Below are positions 11,643-45,017 of a DNA stretch of 64,000 nucleotides, one piece after another. Made by a program: the position numbers and the translations under genes. Under the pieces are notes generated by a model. The model made no database searches, was not told the DNA's origin, and saw only the letters and a list, made by a program, of their open reading frames with translations. Every line of letters starts with the position of its first letter. Position 1 is the first letter of the stretch. This stretch comes from Natrinema mahii (lineage in GTDB: Archaea; Halobacteriota; Halobacteria; Halobacteriales; Natrialbaceae), in NCBI GenBank assembly GCA_000690595.2, contig JHUT02000009.1, positions 62,001 to 126,000 of the forward strand, written 5' to 3'.

Positions 11643-11647
11643 GTGGA

Positions 11648-11692
11648 GTAGCCACTGTCAGTCACCGTGTACCCGATCACACGACAGCCATT
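11648..11692. repeat. Partial palindromic element (left end)
   Basis: A stretch starting AGTAGCCACTGTCAGTCAC and running through a CGATCACACGACAGC-like core matches the left half of the full elements at 26844, 33590 and 43362. The right half is not recognisable here; a matching right end lies at 12389, beyond the next gene. Confidence 0.55.
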
Positions 11693-11777
11693 GCGATTGC
11701 GACAGTGACAACGAGAGGATGCTGCTAGCAACAAGCGTTATGTATCAACACCGCTGATATTCACACTGTACAGGGGG

Positions 11778-12584: not shown

Positions 12585-13691
12585 ATGTTCAGGGATATCG
12601 CTACCGGCTTCGGGGTTTTATTTATCATGGCCGGAGCGGTGCTACTCGCCGGTCCCGTCTACGGATTCACATCCATGGCTGCCGACCGCGGCGTCGGCAT
12701 GCAAACGGCAACCGGAGAGGACGCGTATCTCGGCGTCGTCCCGAGCGACAGTGCGATCGACGGGCCGGACGAGGAAGTCGACATCGCCACACTCACGAAC
12801 AATCTCGAGTCGGACGTCACCACTCTCGAGATTGATGTCGCCTTTTCGAGCGGGGGTGACGACCTCGAGACCACCGTTCCCGAAACGATCGGCACTGACG
12901 GCACCGAGTCGGTTCTCGTCACGTGTAACAACCGCGGCGGTTCACGGGGGTCCGAGACGACGACCGTCACCGTGGCCGTCGAAAAAGCGGTCGCCGACGG
13001 TGTGACGGTTACGGACGTCACGGTACAGAGTGAACTCACCTACGAGTGTAATCCCGGAGGGGGTGGCGGACCACCGGGTGGGGGCGGACCGGGGAACGGC
13101 GGAGCCACCATCGGTAGTGGCGAAGTCAGAAACGGCGACGTCAACAACGATGGAGACGTCGCTTCGGGATGGAACTCCGAGGTCACCGGCGATGTCGACG
13201 CGGGCGGTGACGTGTCGACGGGGTCCTCGAGTACCGTCGGTGGCGACATCGATGCAGACGGCACCGTGACCACGGGCTGGGACTCCGAGATCGGCGGCGA
13301 CGTGACGGCCGGCGATGACGTGTCGACGGGGAGTTCAAGTACCATCGGCGGCGACATCGATACGGACGGGTCCGTGACCACAGGCTGGAGTTCCGAGGTC
13401 GGCGGCGATATAACAGCCGGCGGGGACGTGACGACGGGAGGTTCGAGTACGGTCGACGGTGAAATCACCGCGGACGGAACCGTCGAAACCGGCTGGGACT
13501 CCGAGGTCGGAGACGACATCACTGCGGACGGCGACGTCGTTATCGGCGGGGATAGCACGATCGGCGGCGATATTACCGCCGAGGGGGACGTAGTGGTCGA
13601 ATGGGGGGCAGTGATTGAAGGTGATATCGACGCCGACGGCACGACTGCGATCTCGGATGGCGCAGTGGTTGAAGGCGACATCAACGGGTAA
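12585..13691 (+). CDS. Secreted bactofilin-like beta-helix protein with 18-residue repeats
   Basis: This 368-residue protein has an N-terminal hydrophobic segment (about 5-28), then GFTSMAADRGVGMQTATGED, echoing the ADR motif of the neighbouring exoproteins, and a beta-rich domain with one short cysteine pair up to about 155. A glycine/proline linker (GGGGGPPGGGGPG) joins it to about ten tandem 18-residue repeats from about 183 to the end. The repeats alternate between a tryptophan type (TTGWDSEIGGDVTAG) and a serine type (STGSSSTIGGDIDAD). GDI/GDV-rich repeats of this length fit a right-handed beta-helix as in bactofilins (DUF583), which polymerise without nucleotide. Bactofilins are normally cytosolic; here the protein appears exported. 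Confidence 0.82.
   Translation: MFRDIATGFGVLFIMAGAVLLAGPVYGFTSMAADRGVGMQTATGEDAYLGVVPSDSAIDGPDEEVDIATLTNNLESDVTTLEIDVAFSSGGDDLETTVPETIGTDGTESVLVTCNNRGGSRGSETTTVTVAVEKAVADGVTVTDVTVQSELTYECNPGGGGGPPGGGGPGNGGATIGSGEVRNGDVNNDGDVASGWNSEVTGDVDAGGDVSTGSSSTVGGDIDADGTVTTGWDSEIGGDVTAGDDVSTGSSSTIGGDIDTDGSVTTGWSSEVGGDITAGGDVTTGGSSTVDGEITADGTVETGWDSEVGDDITADGDVVIGGDSTIGGDITAEGDVVVEWGAVIEGDIDADGTTAISDGAVVEGDING
13128..13690 (+). repeat. 54-bp coding repeats of the bactofilin-like protein
   Basis: About ten units of 54 bp, encoding 18 residues each, alternate between two sequence types so that the strongest similarity recurs every 108 bp. The alternation suggests growth by duplication of a two-unit block. 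The last two units are the most divergent. Confidence 0.8.
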
Positions 13692-26381: not shown

Positions 26382-26858
26382 ATGACCGAGTTCCGCGGCG
26401 CGTGGGACGAAGACGACGTCGAAGCGTTCCTTCAGGAGGCGACCATCCCGATCCGGCTCGCGACCCACAGGCCCGACGGGTCGCTGTGGCCGGTCGCGCT
26501 ATGGTATCGTTACCGCGACGGTGCCCTCGAGTGTGCGACGGGTGCGAACGCCGACGTCGTTCGGTTCCTCCGCCGCGAGCCGGCGGTCGGCTTCGATATC
26601 TCGACGAACGACGTTCCCTACCGCGGGATCAGGGGAACCGGCACCGTCGAGATCGCGCCCGACGAGGACAAGGCCGTCCTCCGGTCGCTGATCGAGCGGT
26701 ATCTCGACGATACGGACTCGCCGCTGGCGACGAAACTGCTCGACGACGACCGCGAGGAGGTCCGCGTTCGGATCGAGCCCCGGGAGATCTACAGCTGGGA
26801 CTACAGCGCGCGGATGGGGCGGGGAGCGGGAGAAGACACGGCCAATAGTCGCCGCTGA
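26382..26858 (+). CDS. Pyridoxamine 5'-phosphate oxidase-fold protein
   Basis: This 158-residue protein has the split beta-barrel of flavin/F420-binding PPOX proteins: IPIRLATHRPDGSLWPVALWYRY, YRGIRGTGTVEI and VRIEPREIYSWDYS. Such proteins bind FMN or F420. The last residues ANSRR and the stop codon come from a palindromic mobile element that starts at 26844, so the natural end may be lost. The start MTEFRGAW fits a coding pattern preceded by GC-poor sequence. Confidence 0.85.
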   Translation: MTEFRGAWDEDDVEAFLQEATIPIRLATHRPDGSLWPVALWYRYRDGALECATGANADVVRFLRREPAVGFDISTNDVPYRGIRGTGTVEIAPDEDKAVLRSLIERYLDDTDSPLATKLLDDDREEVRVRIEPREIYSWDYSARMGRGAGEDTANSRR

Positions 26859-26927
26859 CAGTCATTGCACACCTGATCGCACGACAGTGTTTCGATTAGG
26901 GTGTGAATCGTTTCAGCGACTTCGATA
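26844..26927. mobile_element. Palindromic MITE-like element, degenerate copy 1
   Basis: An 84-bp element with imperfect terminal inverted repeats (AATAGTCGCCGCTGA at the left, TTTCAGCGACTTCGATA at the right) and the family core (CATTGCACACCTGATCGCAC ... GGTGTGAATCG). The two halves are roughly inverted copies of each other. It has no coding capacity. It runs into the 3' end of the PPOX gene. Confidence 0.7.
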
Positions 26928-27024
26928 CGCGGGCTCGCGGCCGATCGTCGATCGGGGAAAACGGCGCTCGAGTCGCCTCGAACCCACCTCGAACTGGGTC
27001 GCGTCGATTCGAGGGCGCGGCGGC

Positions 27025-33422: not shown

Positions 33423-33589
33423 TCCCGATTTCCAGTGCGTTGGAGGCGGGGCCGTCGACAGTCACTCGCGGAGACGATCGACCGTCGCCAGTGGGAGACT
33501 CACTCGAGGGGATAGCAGTACCACGACGGTCTCGAAGAAGTCACGCGTACTCGACTGACCCACCGTTTGGGTCGTCACGTCCGACGTAC

Positions 33590-33672
33590 TATAGTAGCCA
33601 CTGAAACGATTCACACACTGATCGCAACGCTGTCGTGCGATTCGGTGTGCAATGACGTTCAGTGGCTACTAT
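33590..33672. mobile_element. Palindromic MITE-like element, copy 2
   Basis: An 83-bp palindrome bounded by ATAGTAGCCACTGAA and TTCAGTGGCTACTAT (perfect 15-bp terminal repeats), with the core GATTCACACACTGATCGCA and its roughly inverted partner TGCGATTCGGTGTGCAATGA. A TA flanks the left end; the right flank is TC, so the duplicated site has changed. No coding capacity is present. Confidence 0.8.
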
Positions 33673-33677
33673 CGGAG

Positions 33678-33841
33678 ATGGACGCCGAGCGCTGGTGGCC
33701 CCCCTTCGTCGAGATCGTGGCCCTCGCGTGGATCGCCCTGTTCGTCGTCGACATCGCGACCGGCTTCGATCTCCTCGTCGTCTCCGACTCGTTCGCGGCG
33801 ACGGTTCGCGGCGTCCTCCATCGTTTCAGCGGCTACTATAG
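33678..33841 (+). pseudogene. Truncated membrane-protein gene cut off by a palindromic element end
   Basis: A frame starting MDAERWWPPFVEIVALAWIA encodes one clear helix (about 10-30) and 50 plausible residues, then runs into the right-end sequence of a palindromic element (TCGTTTCAGC GGCTACTATAG at 33821-33841), after which the frame is no longer protein-like. The sequence resembles the first helix of channel-like membrane proteins, but too little remains to name it. It was probably shortened when the elements arrived or recombined. Confidence 0.45.
33821..33841. repeat. Solo right end of a palindromic element
   Basis: TCGTTTCAGC and GGCTACTATAG match the right ends of the full elements, with no left half nearby other than copy 2 at 33590. 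It may be the scar of a deletion between two copies. Confidence 0.6.
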
Positions 33842-34449: not shown

Positions 34450-35507
34450 TATAGTAGACGTTAGAAATAATTGCTCACATTTGGCACAGAGATCTGATCA
34501 ATAGCTGTATCGATCGCTGTTGTGAGGTCGTTGAGTGAGTCAAAGAAACGATTGCTGAGTGCCGCTTGGAGCTGTCTCCAGCACTCTTCGACGGGATTGA
34601 GCTCTGGCGAGTACGCCGGCAATGTCACGAAGGCGAGATCGTCACGGGACGCTAGGTCCGTGACGGTCGACGCCCGAAAATACGGCGCTCCATCCAACAC
34701 AATAATCAAGTCATCTTCGAGCTCTTTGCATAATGCGAGAATGAAATGTCTTGCGTGATCGGCGGTAACGTACTCTTCAAACCGAGCGAAAAAGCGATCA
34801 CCGTTCTCGGTGATCGTGCCTAAGAGACACGTCCAGTCGCGTTGTCCGGACAGTTCAACAGACGGTTGCGTGCCGCGCGGAAACCACGCGGCACGCGGCT
34901 CAACTTGGACGGATTTCTTGGTTTGATCGATACAGACTACTGTGGCGTCCATTTCCCGTCGCTTTTTTTGAGTTCTTCGCGGAACGCTTCTTGTTCCTCA
35001 GCCTCGGATTCGGCGGCTGTACGGCGTGGTTTTTGATAGCTCAATCCCGCTTCTTTGAGCAACCGCCGGCAACTCGGATAGGAGTACTCGACGCCGTAGG
35101 TTTCGTCGAGGTACTGCTGGACGAGCGCCGACGTCCACGCCGGCGCGTCGATCCCGACTTTCTCGGGAGGTTCGTGAACGGTTTGTTCGAACTCTTCTTG
35201 CTGTCTTTCTGAGAGCTTTCGTTTTCTCCCGGATCGATGAGCATCAGAAACGGCTTGCTCAAGCGGTTCGTCCGTATCGAGTCGCATGAGCCAACTGTAG
35301 ATTGTTCTTCGACCAGTGTCGTGTCATTCTGCAAGTTCGGTCTGAGTCACGCCGTTCTTGTACGCAATCGCCGCTAACAACCGTTGTGTCGGCTTAGCTC
35401 CCTCAACCCTGGCAAGGGCGTCTTGGAGTTCTTCGACGGAGGTTTTGTCGAGATGGTCCATTGTCTACAGCAACAATCTACGGGCGGAAATTCTAATGGT
35501 TACTATA
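34450..35507 (-). mobile_element. IS630-family insertion sequence
   Basis: The element spans imperfect inverted ends (TATAGTAGACGTTAGAAA at the left; TTCTAATGGTTACTATA at the right, about 15 of 19 positions matching) and is flanked by TA, the usual target of the IS630/Tc1 group. It holds one transposase gene on the minus strand in two frames. The outer octamer TATAGTAG is shared with the palindromic elements in this window. Confidence 0.82.
34461..35461 (-). pseudogene. IS630-family transposase, interrupted by a stop codon and a frame change
   Basis: The gene starts ATG at 35461 (MDHLDKTSVEELQDALARVE) and encodes a helix-turn-helix (QTELAE, then HDTGRRTIYSWLMRL), but a TGA at 35324-35326 stands where the family has tryptophan (TGG). 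The second part reads on to 34937 in the same frame; the DDE part (34461-34952) lies in the -1 frame, with Asp in VVCIDQTK, Asp in IIVLDGAPYF and Glu in NPVEECW. A run of seven A on the coding strand (34963-34969) lies in the overlap, a likely slippage site as in many IS630 members. The stop codon means this copy is probably inactive. Confidence 0.85.
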
Positions 35508-39551: not shown

Positions 39552-42020
39552 CTACAGCAGATAGAAGATCGGGAACAGGAACACCCAGACGATGTCGACG
39601 AAGTGCCAGTAGAGCCCGAAGTACTCGACCGGCCGGTGATCCGTGAGATAGGCGTTGACCGAGAGGGTCCGATAGATCATGAACCCGGCGATGAGCAGCC
39701 CGAGGATGACGTGGAAAGCGTGCAGCCCCGTCGTCACGAAATACAGCGAGTACTCGAGGTCGGTGAACCAGTAGATCCCGTGGGAGAACTCGTAGTTCCA
39801 CTCGTAGCCCTTGATGCCGAGAAACAGGAAGCCAAGCACGAGCGTGGCCCCCATCGAGGCCAGCAGGCCGCGCTTGTTTTCGCGTTCGGCCATCACCAGT
39901 GCCAGCACGACCGTGAAACTCGAGGTCAGCAGGACGTAGGTGTTGAGCAGGCCGATCGTCGACGACGGCGGGACGGTCTCGAAGCTGCCCCAGCCGTTGT
40001 TGATCCGCATGAACAGATACGCACCGATGACGGCACCGAAGACGACCACGTCCGAGGCGAGGAAGAACCAGACCCCGGTCTTGGTCGTTCCGACGCCCTC
40101 GAACGGCCAGCGCTCGGCGATCGCCATCTCGGGGGCGTCGAACCGCTCGCGGCCGTACTCGAAGAGCGAGTAGCCGAGGACCGCGACGCCGATCACCGAG
40201 ATCGCGGGATAGATGACGGTTGCCGAGCCGGCGACCGAGCCGGGAAAGTCCGCCCCGCGTGCGGCCGCGAACGATGCCACGTACGGCGTCAGTCCGGACA
40301 GCCCCAGGAACGTGATGAACATTCCGACGCCGATCCCGAACGGCCAGATGCTCGCGTGGTCCTCGTGATCCCCCTCGAGCGCGTCCGCCTGCCCCGTTCG
40401 TTCGTGGGCGACCGCCCCGCCGTCGGCCGCCGTCGCGTCGTCGACGAACTCGAGTGTGCCGGAGGCGTAGCTGGGCCGGTCGGGCCAGTTCTCGAGCGGC
40501 GGCGGCGAGGTCGTCGCCCACTCGGCGGTCCGGGCGTACGCCCACGGGTTATCGGGCGCGTCGGGCCCTGAAACGAGACTCTTCCCGAGCGTGAGAAAGA
40601 CCAGCAGGAACGAGGCGCCGAGGACGAACGCGCCGACGGTCGCCAGTTGGTGATAGAGCTGGGCGCCCTCGCCGTAGTGGAAGACACGCCGGGGCGTCTC
40701 CCAGGCGATGAACATCGGGAAGTACAGCAGGTTGAACCCGACGAAGTAGGCGCCGAAGCTGAGCTTTCCGAGCCGCTCGGAGTACATCTTCCCGGTCATC
40801 TTGGGCCACCAGTAGTAGAGGCCGGCGATCAGCGCCGTGACCCCGGCGACCATCACGTAGTGGAAGTGGGCGACGACCCAGTAGGTGCCCCGGAACTCGT
40901 AGTCGAGCACGACGGCCCCGAGGAAGACCCCGGTGATGCCGCCGATGATGAACAACACGAGCGCGCCCATCGTGAACAGGAACGGCGTCGTAAAGCGGAC
41001 CCGGCCCTTGACCATGGTGTAGATTATCGCGAAGACCATCAAGTCGAAGGGCAACGAGATCCCGATCGTCGTCGCCATGAACAGGGTCTTGATCGGGAGG
41101 TTGATCGTCGTCAGGAACATGTGATGCATCCAGACCAAAAAGGACTGGACGGCCACCAGCACCATCGCGATGATGACCCACTTCCGGCCGACGAGTCGCC
41201 GCCCGGTGAACGTCTGGACGGTCTCGAACATGATCCCCAACGCGGGGAAGAAGACGATGTACACCTCCGGATGGCCGAAGAACCAGAACAGATGGCCCCA
41301 CAGCAGGCTCGAGCCCTGATCGGTGCCGAAGTACTGGGTCAGCAGGAGCCGGTCGGTCAACAGCAGGATCATCGCGGCCAGCAGCGCCGCGAACGCAAAG
41401 AGCATCATCCAGACCGTCAGCAGCGTTCCCCACGTGAACAGCGGCATGTTCCAGAGACCGAGCCCCTCGGCGCGACGAGTGTGGATCGTCGTCAGGAAGT
41501 TCACCGTGCTGAGGGTGGTCGACATGACGAACAGCGTCAGGGCGAGGATGGTCGTGTTCCCGCCCATCGTCAGCGCGTAGCCGGGGTTGTAGATCGGGAC
41601 GTTCAGCGGGGCGTACATATACCAGCCGTTGGCCCACGTCGTCCCCTGGAAGAACGAGAACAGGACGAGAAGCCCCGAGAACAGGTAAAACCAGTAGCTC
41701 AACGCATTCAACCGGGGAAACGCCAGATCGTTCGCGCCGATCTGTAATGGGACGAGGTAGTTCGCGAACGCGAAGCCGAGCGGCGAGATGAACCAGAACA
41801 CCATCAGGAGGCCGTGAATCGAGACCGACTGATTGTACTGGGTGTTCGTCAGGAGACCGGTGCCGCCGGCTTGCCACAGGTGCGCGCGGAACAGCAACGC
41901 GAGGATCCCGCCGGCCAGGAGGAAGAAAATCGCCGTCACCAGATAGAGGATGCCGACGTCCTTGTGATTGGTCGTGACGAGCCACCGCTTGACCGTCGTT
42001 CGCGGCGGGAAATCGCTCAT
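39552..42020 (-). CDS. Cytochrome c/quinol oxidase, fused subunits I and III
   Basis: This 822-residue heme-copper oxidase has subunit I in residues about 1-500: haem ligands in NQSVSIHGLLMVFW and HFHYVMVAG, the CuB site in FFGHPEVYIVFFP (His and cross-linked Tyr) and WMHHMF (His pair). After an acidic, soluble linker (about 520-560) a subunit III region of seven helices follows (EGVGTTKTGVWFFLASDVVVF, FHVILGLLIAGF, HFVDIVWVFLFPIFY). I+III fusion is common in archaeal terminal oxidases. The enzyme reduces oxygen to water and pumps protons. A 35-codon frame overlaps its start. Subunit II is not in this window. Confidence 0.95.
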   Translation of the reverse strand: MSDFPPRTTVKRWLVTTNHKDVGILYLVTAIFFLLAGGILALLFRAHLWQAGGTGLLTNTQYNQSVSIHGLLMVFWFISPLGFAFANYLVPLQIGANDLAFPRLNALSYWFYLFSGLLVLFSFFQGTTWANGWYMYAPLNVPIYNPGYALTMGGNTTILALTLFVMSTTLSTVNFLTTIHTRRAEGLGLWNMPLFTWGTLLTVWMMLFAFAALLAAMILLLTDRLLLTQYFGTDQGSSLLWGHLFWFFGHPEVYIVFFPALGIMFETVQTFTGRRLVGRKWVIIAMVLVAVQSFLVWMHHMFLTTINLPIKTLFMATTIGISLPFDLMVFAIIYTMVKGRVRFTTPFLFTMGALVLFIIGGITGVFLGAVVLDYEFRGTYWVVAHFHYVMVAGVTALIAGLYYWWPKMTGKMYSERLGKLSFGAYFVGFNLLYFPMFIAWETPRRVFHYGEGAQLYHQLATVGAFVLGASFLLVFLTLGKSLVSGPDAPDNPWAYARTAEWATTSPPPLENWPDRPSYASGTLEFVDDATAADGGAVAHERTGQADALEGDHEDHASIWPFGIGVGMFITFLGLSGLTPYVASFAAARGADFPGSVAGSATVIYPAISVIGVAVLGYSLFEYGRERFDAPEMAIAERWPFEGVGTTKTGVWFFLASDVVVFGAVIGAYLFMRINNGWGSFETVPPSSTIGLLNTYVLLTSSFTVVLALVMAERENKRGLLASMGATLVLGFLFLGIKGYEWNYEFSHGIYWFTDLEYSLYFVTTGLHAFHVILGLLIAGFMIYRTLSVNAYLTDHRPVEYFGLYWHFVDIVWVFLFPIFYLL

Positions 42021-42124
42021 CGACTCACCCCCCGATCGATCCGTCGATCGTCGTCACCGGCGGTGACGTGATCGGAATCGGTCGCGACGTGCCGGCAAAA
42101 CGGCGAGGACGCGACGGAGACCAT
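42017..42124 (-). CDS. 35-codon frame coupled to the oxidase gene
   Basis: A frame starting MVSVASSPFCRHVATDSDHV ends with TGA inside the ATG of the oxidase gene (ATGA overlap). It lacks hydrophobic segments. It may be a leader peptide or an upstream frame that sets translation of the oxidase; it could also be chance. Low confidence. Confidence 0.35.
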   Translation of the reverse strand: MVSVASSPFCRHVATDSDHVTAGDDDRRIDRGVSR

Positions 42125-42218
42125 ACCGCTACCTCAGTACGATTCGTCGTATCAAAGTGTCCGGTGCGCCTGCAGGCGATACTTGTAGCGGCCGGCGGCC
42201 GTTCGCGGGACGACGGCG

Positions 42219-43049
42219 CTATCGGTCGTCGGCGGCCGGTTCCAACCCCGGAAAGTCGGCGATGATCCCGTCGACGCCGGCGGCCGCGAGCCGGTCGAAC
42301 TGGACCCAGTTTCGCACCGTCCAGACGTTGACCGCCCGCCCCGCCTCGTGGGCCCGCTCGAGGAGGTCGATCCCGGAGCCGTCGTTCGCGTCCCCGATCG
42401 TCGCCGTCCCGTCCGGCTCGGGGCCGAGGATCGCGGTTCGGGGTGGATGAACCGCCTCGCAGTCGTACCGGTCCGCGATCTCGAGGCCGGCCGCGAGGTC
42501 CGCGCCGACCAGCGGGGCGGCGGCGTAGTCGGCGACCTCGCGCAGCGCCGCGATCGCCCCCTCGCAAAAGGAGGAAAACAGCAGGTCGCCGCCGAAGGCC
42601 TCGCAGTCGGCGACGACGCGCTCGACGAACGGCCGCCAGACCGCGCGCCGGTGATCGCGGTCGTCTGTGGGCAGCGCCTCGCCGACCCGGAGGTCGGCGG
42701 TCCCGGGGCTCTTGAGTTCGACGTTGACCCCGACCGATTCGGGGACGGCCTCGAGCAGGGCGGCGAGGGAGGGGATCGTCGCGTCGGTCCCCAGCACGCG
42801 CGTCGCCTGCAGCTCTTCAAGGGGCGTCTCGCGAACGAGTCCAGTCGCGTCGGTCAGGGGGCGGCCGTCGCGAGTCCCGTCGAGGCGCTCGTCGTGGACG
42901 ACCACCGGGGTGCCGCAGGCGGCCGGTCGGACGTCGATCTCGATCATGGCGGTCTCGTCGCGGGCGGCGGCGCGTTCGGCCGCGGCGATCGTGTTCTCGG
43001 GCGCGACCCCGGCGTAGCCGCGATGGGCGATGACGGCAGGGCGGACCAT
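42219..43049 (-). CDS. Glycerophosphodiester phosphodiesterase
   Basis: This 276-residue soluble enzyme hydrolyses glycerophosphodiesters. The GDPD hallmarks are AHRGYAGVAPENTIAA near the N-terminus (His and Glu), EIDVRPA, VVVHDERLDGT (metal and acid-base residues) and GVNVELKSPG. The C-terminal VNVWTVRNWVQFDRLAAAGVDGIIADFP is the usual end. No signal peptide is present. It is 198 nt from the oxidase gene on the same strand. Confidence 0.92.
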   Translation of the reverse strand: MVRPAVIAHRGYAGVAPENTIAAAERAAARDETAMIEIDVRPAACGTPVVVHDERLDGTRDGRPLTDATGLVRETPLEELQATRVLGTDATIPSLAALLEAVPESVGVNVELKSPGTADLRVGEALPTDDRDHRRAVWRPFVERVVADCEAFGGDLLFSSFCEGAIAALREVADYAAAPLVGADLAAGLEIADRYDCEAVHPPRTAILGPEPDGTATIGDANDGSGIDLLERAHEAGRAVNVWTVRNWVQFDRLAAAGVDGIIADFPGLEPAADDR

Positions 43050-43146
43050 ATCGGACCGACGACCGGCCGGCTAATGTAAACTGCGCTACCGGACGACGTG
43101 GCAGTTCCCGGCCCGCCGTTGATGCGTGTGCCCCCCGACCGCGAGT

Positions 43147-43361
43147 GTGACCGAAACCACGCTCGCCGACGTCGAACGCGCGCTGGAGCGCGCCGCCGAC
43201 CGCGAGACCAAGGAGGCCGTTTCAGTCCTGCGGACCGCCCGGCAGGACGGTCGGGACCCGGCGACCGACGCCGACGTCGACGAGGATCGCGAACGGACCT
43301 CGAGCACCGCCTCGAACGGCGGATCCGCGACGTGCGAGCGCGCGACGCCGACGACGGCGGG
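43147..43361 (+). pseudogene. Small hydrophilic gene with a frameshift and an element insertion
   Basis: From GTG at 43147 the frame encodes TETTLADVERALERAADRETKEAVSVL and runs to about codon 50, where the frame shifts; the next frame gives TDLEHRLERRIRDVRARDADDGGL. The palindromic element then interrupts it at 43362, and the sequence after the element reads GAAMNP, which would continue the same protein. I infer a small cytoplasmic protein broken first by a frameshift near 43290 and then by the element, or the reverse. Confidence 0.6.
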
Positions 43362-43447
43362 CTATAGTAGCTCTTGAAAGTCACTGCACACCCGACCGCA
43401 GGACAGCGTTGTGATCGGTGTGTAAATCGGTTCAAGAGCTACTATAG
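43362..43447. mobile_element. Palindromic MITE-like element, copy 3 (best preserved)
   Basis: An 86-bp element with perfect 17-bp terminal repeats (CTATAGTAGCTCTTGAA and TTCAAGAGCTACTATAG). The core (CACTGCACACCCGACCGCAG ... TGATCGGTGTGTAAATCGG) is roughly inverted as in the other copies. TA flanks both sides, as expected for a TA target duplication. It is inserted in the broken gene at 43147. Confidence 0.85.
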
Positions 43448-43586
43448 GGGCGGCGATGAACCCGGCAGCGGGCGACACACCGTCGCGGGGTTCACCGTCG
43501 TCGGCCGAGTTCGAGGGCGTCCGAGAACCCGGCGAGATCGGCCGCGCTCCGGCCCTTTTATTCGGGTGCCGTCCGGAGACGGAGGT

Positions 43587-44255
43587 ATGCGAATTGCACT
43601 ACTCGGCGGCACCGGCGACATCGGCGAAGGACTCGCGTTGCGCGTTGCACGCGATACGAACCACGAGATCCTCATCGGCTCGCGCGACCCCGAGAAGGCC
43701 CGTGACGCGGTCGCGGACTACGAGGCGGAACTCGAGGCCCGCGGCGCCGACGCCGATCTGAAGGGGTTCGACAACGAGATGGCGGCCGACCGCGCCGATA
43801 TCGTCATTGTCAGCGTCCCGCCGTACTACGTCGGCGACACCGTCGAGGCGGTCGCGGACAGCCTCGATTCCGACTCGGTCCTCGTGACCCCCGCGGTCGG
43901 GATGCAGGGCGACGAGGACGGCCTACACTACCACCCGCCCGAGGCCGGTAGCGTCACCGAACTCGTCGCGCAGCGAGCGCCCGACGAGGTGCCGGTCGTC
44001 GGTGCCTTCCACAACCTCGCGGCCGACGCCCTCTCGAATCTCGACAACGAGCTGGACCTCGATACGCTCGTCGTCGCCGACGACGACGACGCCAAAGCAA
44101 CCGTCCTGACGGTCGCCAACGAGATCGACGGCCTGCGCGCGCTCGAGGCCGGGCCGCTGGCCAACGCCGCGGAGGTCGAGAGCGTCACGCCGCTCGTGAT
44201 CAATATCGCGAAGTACAACGAGGACATGCACGACGTCGGCGTCAAGTGGATCTGA
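43587..44255 (+). CDS. npdG: F420-dependent NADP reductase
   Basis: This 222-residue enzyme moves hydride between reduced F420 and NADP. The NADP-binding motif LLGGTGDIGEGLALR and GSRDPEKARD near the N-terminus, VSVPPYYVGDTV and VTPAVGMQGDEDGLHY, and GAFHNLAADALSN in the middle are the family blocks. Length and layout match archaeal Fno/NpdG. GGAG lies 4 nt before the ATG at 43587. Confidence 0.93.
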   Translation: MRIALLGGTGDIGEGLALRVARDTNHEILIGSRDPEKARDAVADYEAELEARGADADLKGFDNEMAADRADIVIVSVPPYYVGDTVEAVADSLDSDSVLVTPAVGMQGDEDGLHYHPPEAGSVTELVAQRAPDEVPVVGAFHNLAADALSNLDNELDLDTLVVADDDDAKATVLTVANEIDGLRALEAGPLANAAEVESVTPLVINIAKYNEDMHDVGVKWI

Positions 44256-44376
44256 GCCGAACCGACGGCGGCTCGGTGTGACTCCTCGGTTCGACCGATC
44301 GCGCGACCGAGACCTCGAGGCGAGCGGAAAGTCGGGACTATCGACGGTCGAAACCGCGAGAAACCGGTGATCGTCC

Positions 44377-44646
44377 CTACGCGCCGGCCGACTCGAGGGC
44401 GTCCTCGATGTCGTCGCGCTGGGTGACGCCGACGAAGCGCTCGACGATGCCGTCGTCGTTCTCGATGATCAGGGTCGGGAGCGAGCGAACCTGGTACTCG
44501 TTGGCGACGTCCTGTTGTTCGTCGACGTTTACCTTCTCGACTTCGAATCGGCCCTCCCAGTCGTCCTCGAGCTCCTCGAGGATCGGGTCCTGGGTCTTGC
44601 AGGGGCCACACCAGTCCGCGTAGAAATCCTTCAGTGTGACAGTCAT
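44377..44646 (-). CDS. Thioredoxin-like protein
   Basis: This 89-residue protein has the active site FYADWCGPCKTQDP and the cis-proline turn VRSLPTLIIEN, with the C-terminal helix THR-type end DDIEDALESAGA. It is a short soluble thioredoxin. MTVTLKDF was taken as start; an upstream ATG would add 15 residues of poor fit. Confidence 0.92.
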   Translation of the reverse strand: MTVTLKDFYADWCGPCKTQDPILEELEDDWEGRFEVEKVNVDEQQDVANEYQVRSLPTLIIENDDGIVERFVGVTQRDDIEDALESAGA

Positions 44647-44855
44647 GCGGTCATCGCTAGTTGCCACGCGCCGCGCATAAGGGTTTCCCACCGACAGCCG
44701 ATTGCCGGGATCGGTGACGCGGGCGAGGACGACACCGGCCGGAACCGGAGCAGGCAGCCGCCGAGAGACGGAATCCCTCCCTCGAGCGAACCCGCCCGAA
44801 AGCGCGGGCCGGAGTCGGTCGAAAGGTTTAGTTCCGGGGGGACATAGGAACGGGT

Positions 44856-45017
44856 ATGGACAAAGGACAGAACACCGGCGGGCTGATGTCCAGTGCCGGA
44901 TTGGTCCGGTACTTCGACTCCGAGGACTCGAACGCCATCCGAATCGACCCGAAGACGGTCATCGCCTTCGGCGTCATGCTGGGCGTCGTGGTCCAGCTGC
45001 TGACGCTGGTCTCGTAA
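44856..45017 (+). CDS. secG: Preprotein translocase subunit Sec61 beta
   Basis: This 53-residue protein ([20 protein letters not shown]) has a short cytoplasmic N-terminus with the conserved [13 protein letters not shown] pattern and one C-terminal helix ([20 protein letters not shown]). It is the small beta subunit of the archaeal Sec translocon. A TATA-like GGTTTAG at 44825-44831 is 25-30 nt before the ATG, predicting a leaderless gene. Too short for many gene finders. Confidence 0.9.

Follow-up and report, generated by a model that had tools for sequence, protein, structure and literature searches.

A short palindromic element, probably an IS630-type MITE, interrupts a decayed 85-codon gene beside npdG in Natrinema mahii

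The DNA analyzed here (the window) is a stretch of 64,000 nucleotides from Natrinema mahii, comprising bases 62001 to 126000 of contig 9 in a draft genome of 24 contigs and 3.79 Mb. A palindrome at 43362-43447 is flanked by a glycerophosphodiester phosphodiesterase-like gene on one side and npdG on the other, and the two parts of a small protein gene adjoin it directly (Table 1). An earlier note on this DNA had placed the palindrome, 86 bp long, inside that small gene, had observed that the parts before and after it continue in the same sense, and had proposed looking for the intact gene in close relatives.

TABLE 1 Features of the locus and related features elsewhere in the window (window coordinates; ".", no strand assigned)
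Feature	Position	Strand	Remarks
Gene resembling glycerophosphodiester phosphodiesterase	42219-43049	minus	Match below family cut-off
5' part of small conserved gene, 73 codons up to leucine	43147-43361	+	GTG start, one-base frameshift near 43292
86-bp palindrome, including flanking C..G and both TA copies	43362-43447	.	Probable MITE family copy
Left TA of target duplication	43363-43364	.	By analogy with empty sites L046, L056
80-bp mobile unit proper (TAGTAGC ... GCTACTA)	43365-43444	.	Limits taken from the empty CTAG sites at L046 and L056
Right TA of target duplication	43445-43446	.	By analogy with empty sites L046, L056
3' part of gene (GAAMNPAAGDTP)	43448-43483	+	Relatives' stop codon missing
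npdG, NADPH-dependent F420 reductase	43587-44255		E 6.6e-78
IS630-family transposon, same terminal bases	34450-35507	minus	Candidate transposase source or source's relative; from ends, NF033545, PF13358, frames
Another probable MITE copy	33589-33674	minus	
Older, diverged probable MITE copy	26843-26928	+	
Possible MITE remnant	11643-11729	+	Weak match, 18.9 bits

We searched 61 genomes (the own genome included) with positions 43147-43480. Among the matches listed were 25 loci in other genomes at which the match spans the gene to about the start of the element. Translation after orientation gave an uninterrupted 85-amino-acid protein across the insertion point at 24 of these 25 orthologous loci; the 25th (L028, in genome G017) has a frameshift of its own in the gene. 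The element was absent from leucine 73 at all 25 loci, as determined by comparison of the flanks at 22 of them and from the uninterrupted translations at the remaining ones (L012, L013, and L018). Thus, the intact gene exists in the relatives and joins at the insertion point, and the two parts are one gene, as the earlier note had supposed. That they belong to different genes, or that misassembly at a repeat produced their join, is extremely improbable. The draft state of the genome, in 24 contigs, and the repetitive nature of the element would be compatible with a misassembly, but one open frame runs over the point in 24 of 25 cases and the flanks align at the same place in the relatives.

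The insertion point is leucine codon 73 of the 85-codon gene, and in the original gene frame the insertion creates a stop (CTA TAG) directly after the leucine. The window copy of the gene also differs from its relatives in other ways: at about 43292 it lacks one base that the aligned relatives have, in accord with the frameshift previously noticed near 43290; it starts with GTG, versus ATG in the relatives; and the relatives' stop is missing, the frame remaining open on to 43761. As indicated by the frameshift, the GTG start, and the missing stop, the window copy is a decayed gene, in which the element is not the sole lesion. In the first 48 codons, the differences at the first, second, and third codon positions numbered 5, 4, and 10 between the window copy and L009, and 4, 2, and 10 between L009 and L010, numbers small for a judgment on whether selection on the gene had already relaxed. 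A search of the own genome gave no intact second copy, only the two broken pieces of the gene itself and two matches with E values of 0.25 and 0.45; taken with the frameshift and the lost stop, this result implies that the host probably lacks the protein. Given the separate frameshift at L028, loss of this gene may have occurred repeatedly. No family model matched the gene above its cut-off, the sole match being to PF24430 (E 0.064, below its cut-off), and a search for the gene in viral contigs yielded 17 pattern matches, of which none was a relative. At L013 (genome G021), a longer variant of the element, of about 120 bp, lies directly after the stop of the intact orthologous gene.

The arms of the palindrome (43362-43378 and 43431-43447) form a perfect inverted repeat, complementary at 17 of 17 positions. 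The arm 17-mer, with up to 3 mismatches allowed, occurs 4 times in the window versus 0 times in 100 dinucleotide shuffles. The element is non-coding and, with 80 bp between the TAs, is too small for a transposase. In the own genome, a search with the 90-bp element region found at least 40 places with the element, at 77 to 100% identity. With 2 mismatches or fewer, its end pattern occurred 114 times per strand, versus 21 and 26 times for the reversed control; this excess suggests that the genome carries an estimated 90 or so elements. Alignment A2 contains 43 of the 52 element rows collected. It omits L039 and L057, each identical to an included row; the shorter or diverged rows L043 1285-1370, L049, L067, L042 358-443, and those at 26843-26928 and 11643-11729 of the window; and an L004 row truncated at the edge of the locus. 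Mean pairwise identity among the 43 aligned copies was 87%, and the six nearest copies were 95 to 99% identical to the window element. Subfamilies differ at three adjacent positions of the ends that pair across the palindrome: TCT/AGA, CGC/ACG or GCG, and CAC/GTG. A solo right element end lies at 33820-33841 of the window, 146 bp past the full copy at 33589-33674, and is perhaps the remnant of a deletion or rearrangement.

Among the plasmid matches to the element, 40 of 41 were listed, and all were haloarchaeal, including plasmids of Natrinema, Haloterrigena, Haloarcula, and Natronorubrum. Under an incomplete gene table, 30 of these 40 listed matches fell under no listed feature, and 4 were in unannotated records. 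Phage records gave no match to the element, and a search of viral contigs with one exact pattern gave 0. The element family is spread over the Halobacteria and has apparently been active recently.

At four places, related genomes differed in whether the element was there: the 43362 site, L046, L056, and, for one of two tandem members, L069. It is therefore mobile and, with its many copies, belongs to a mobile repeat family. We consider it highly improbable that the element is a non-mobile or domesticated structure (a REP-like palindrome, an RNA hairpin, or a terminator) kept for its hairpin function. Its strand does fold better than 200 shuffles (z of -5.7 as DNA, -8.3 and -6.4 as RNA), and the arms covary between subfamilies. 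The paired columns of A2 covaried above shuffles on 3 of 5 measures; 62 cells were changed on both sides versus 28 in shuffles, and the covariation score was 0.145 versus 0.087, with 0 of 500 shuffles as high. However, the other 2 measures fell within the shuffle range (49 and 80 of 500), and the Rfam models gave 0 matches to positions 42000-45000 at E values up to 1. The covariation means that the arms change together; it is no proof of RNA function, because both arms of a subfamily may descend from one symmetrical parent, in which case covariation is expected. Mobility, which the presence or absence at the same sites demonstrates, argues against this reading, but a hairpin function at some sites may be compatible with mobility.

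Two sites revealed the target. At L046, the own genome reads C-TA-element-TA-G, versus an empty CTAG in G006 and CTAA in G026; at L056, the sequence is TCTAGG in G004 and CCCCCTAGC in G006. The empty CTAG sites of G006 (at L046) and G004 (at L056) confirm a 2-bp target duplication of TA. Because the examined relatives read CTG, CTC, or TTG at the 43362 site, not CTA, the duplication there is assigned by analogy with L046 and L056. The first letter was C in 41 of the 43 element copies, the last was G in 37, and both ends were exactly CTATAG in 29. At L069:1002-1167, a head-to-tail pair of elements shares one CTATAG, and G006 has a single copy there, as expected if the second copy entered the TA that ends the first. 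The matches listed for G006 included other stretches, each about 170 bp long, that contain two elements (C5, C48, and C49). At the position of the L046:1501-1586 element, where the own genome has a copy of the young subfamily and G006 and G026 have none, G004 carries a very diverged element (L103). Independent insertions at one target and the replacement of one copy by another are candidate readings of this position.

A candidate source of the transposase lies in the same window. The own genome contains 2 matches to PF13358 (DDE_3), one of them in the window within the transposon at 34450-35507. The candidate transposon matches PF13358, PF13592, and PF13565, that is, a DDE transposase and a two-part helix-turn-helix; in its match to NF033545, the second half scored above the cut-off, whereas the first half alone scored below it. 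We compared transposon ends at the 83 of 111 loci at which both ends were recognized. The length was 1,059 bp at 61 of the 83, and the flanks were C..G at 57 of the 83, as in the element. The transposon ends read TATAGTA(G/A)NCGTTAGAA, and the consensus of their 3'-side ends, TATAGTAgncgTTAGAAaTAaTTgCTCAC, resembles TATAGTAGCCGCTGAAAGTCATTGCACAC of the element. The first 8 bases of element and transposon ends are identical, and the likeness extends over about 30 bp.

We scored this likeness at positions 10 to 30 against shuffles. The majority left and right arms of the element matched the 3'-side ends of the transposons at 12.6 and 12.8 of 21 positions, versus about 5.2 and 5.7 for shuffles, of which 0 and 1 of 5000 reached the scores of the majority arms. 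Against the 5'-side ends, the same arms scored 10.0 and 11.6 (16 and 0 of 5000 shuffles). The arms of the window copy gave weaker values than the majority arms, 11.5 and 10.1 of 21 against the 3'-side ends (1 and 33 of 5000) and 9.2 and 8.8 of 21 against the 5'-side ends (71 and 128 of 5000). We found no transposon that would yield the element by simple internal deletion.

In the window transposon, the N-terminal frame contains a stop, and two frames overlap in an A-rich stretch. Another copy (L078), on contig 2, has two open overlapping frames, as in other members of the family. These frames may be joined by frameshift; if they are, L078 looks like the sole usable copy. G004 has many element copies and no PF13358 match; there, either the transposase has been lost or another transposase serves.

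We put the probability at about 0.9 that the element is an IS630/Tc1-mariner-type MITE that was moved by the transposase of such a transposon and landed at leucine codon 73. By analogy with ISY100, the most likely source of movement would be a transposase of the IS630 group found here, acting in trans. Such a transposase would bind the ends of the element, cut it out, and paste it at a TA; one copy so moved would have landed in the conserved 85-codon gene beside npdG. Reportedly, by the title of a 1991 paper by Tenzen and Ohtsubo, there is a preference for TA in CTAG. ISY100, an element of the IS630 family, needs no protein but its transposase for excision and insertion, and it inserts almost exclusively at TA, which is duplicated (PMC2170065).

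Among known systems, IS630/Tc1-mariner MITEs are alike in being short and non-coding, in sharing terminal inverted repeats with an IS630-family transposon, and in having a TA duplication and a CTAG-type target; unlike them, the element measures a mere 80 bp, and almost all of it is palindromic. Of the features tested, we found it to be small and non-coding, with terminal inverted repeats, dispersed copies, insertion polymorphism, and ends shared with a transposon, which are those of MITEs. The features tested for IS630-type insertion, namely TA duplication and, in the candidate transposon, a DDE transposase with a two-part helix-turn-helix, also fitted, and those tested for SMRs and PATEs did not. 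It is very unlikely that the element is instead a "small mobile repeat" (SMR) of the Haloquadratum kind, which would move by an unknown route, with no target duplication and no transposon with similar ends. Compared by description only, it resembles SMRs in size, in its inverted ends, and in its high copy number, and one type of SMR is 80 bp long. The SMR-A and SMR-B repeats of Haloquadratum walsbyi are likewise haloarchaeal, 80 to 110 bp long, with prominent inverted ends and many copies, but they are described as producing no target duplication and as lacking a transposon with similar ends (PMC3119063). The element has both: TA is duplicated at two sites, and the ends are like those of an IS630 transposon. 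The PATEs of Haloquadratum are also palindrome-bearing repeats without a transposase; however, they have no terminal inverted repeats and are of IS605-type kin, whereas the element is an inverted repeat from end to end and is related to IS630 (PMC3119063).

IS630-type MITEs are a known kind. MITEs are reported from archaea including Halobacterium and Haloquadratum (2024 review, PMC10969869), and Haloquadratum MITEs without a functional partner have been reported (PMC3119063). We found no description of the 80-bp element family in the literature searched; the family may already be known in supplementary tables, subscription journals, or ISfinder. The insertion event is ordinary in kind, a MITE in a decayed gene. 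On the MITE reading, it explains the broken gene and links a tiny repeat family of the Halobacteria to a definite transposon. Very small copies of this sort stay unannotated. Paired with its matched transposase, so small an element (80 bp) could be used to test the minimal size of a mariner-type element that moves.

A further possibility, which we consider unlikely, is that the ends of the element and of its IS630 partner are shaped to make a favorite target harmless. CTAG is depleted in the window (14 observed versus about 60 expected from trinucleotides), and its TAG can be a stop codon preceded by C. An insertion read from such a stop gives TAT AGT AGN NNN followed by a stop, which adds only 4 residues to the protein. 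The fifth codon was a stop in 43 of 43 left arms and 41 of 43 right arms of the element; for the transposon ends, the counts were 83 of 83 and 79 of 83, though with a different stop word (TGA versus TAG). At L046:1501-1586, the element is inserted in the TAG stop of a gene, which ends four codons later at a TGA of the element; in G006, the gene ends at the TAG that was the target. Where a long frame enters the insertion, it did so in the relevant frame in 3 of 4 element cases and 0 of 2 transposon cases. Because insertions entered by a long frame are so few, the constraint of transposase binding alone may explain the stops in the ends; the cases bearing on an insertion preference for stop codons were likewise few. 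These counts are rough, since the gene-calling rule (an acidic protein and GC-rich third positions) overlooked at least the gene at L046.

Elsewhere in the window, at 13133-13537, a 189-nt stretch occurs three times at a spacing of 108 bp and with 70 to 75% identity. It is probably a repeated protein domain.
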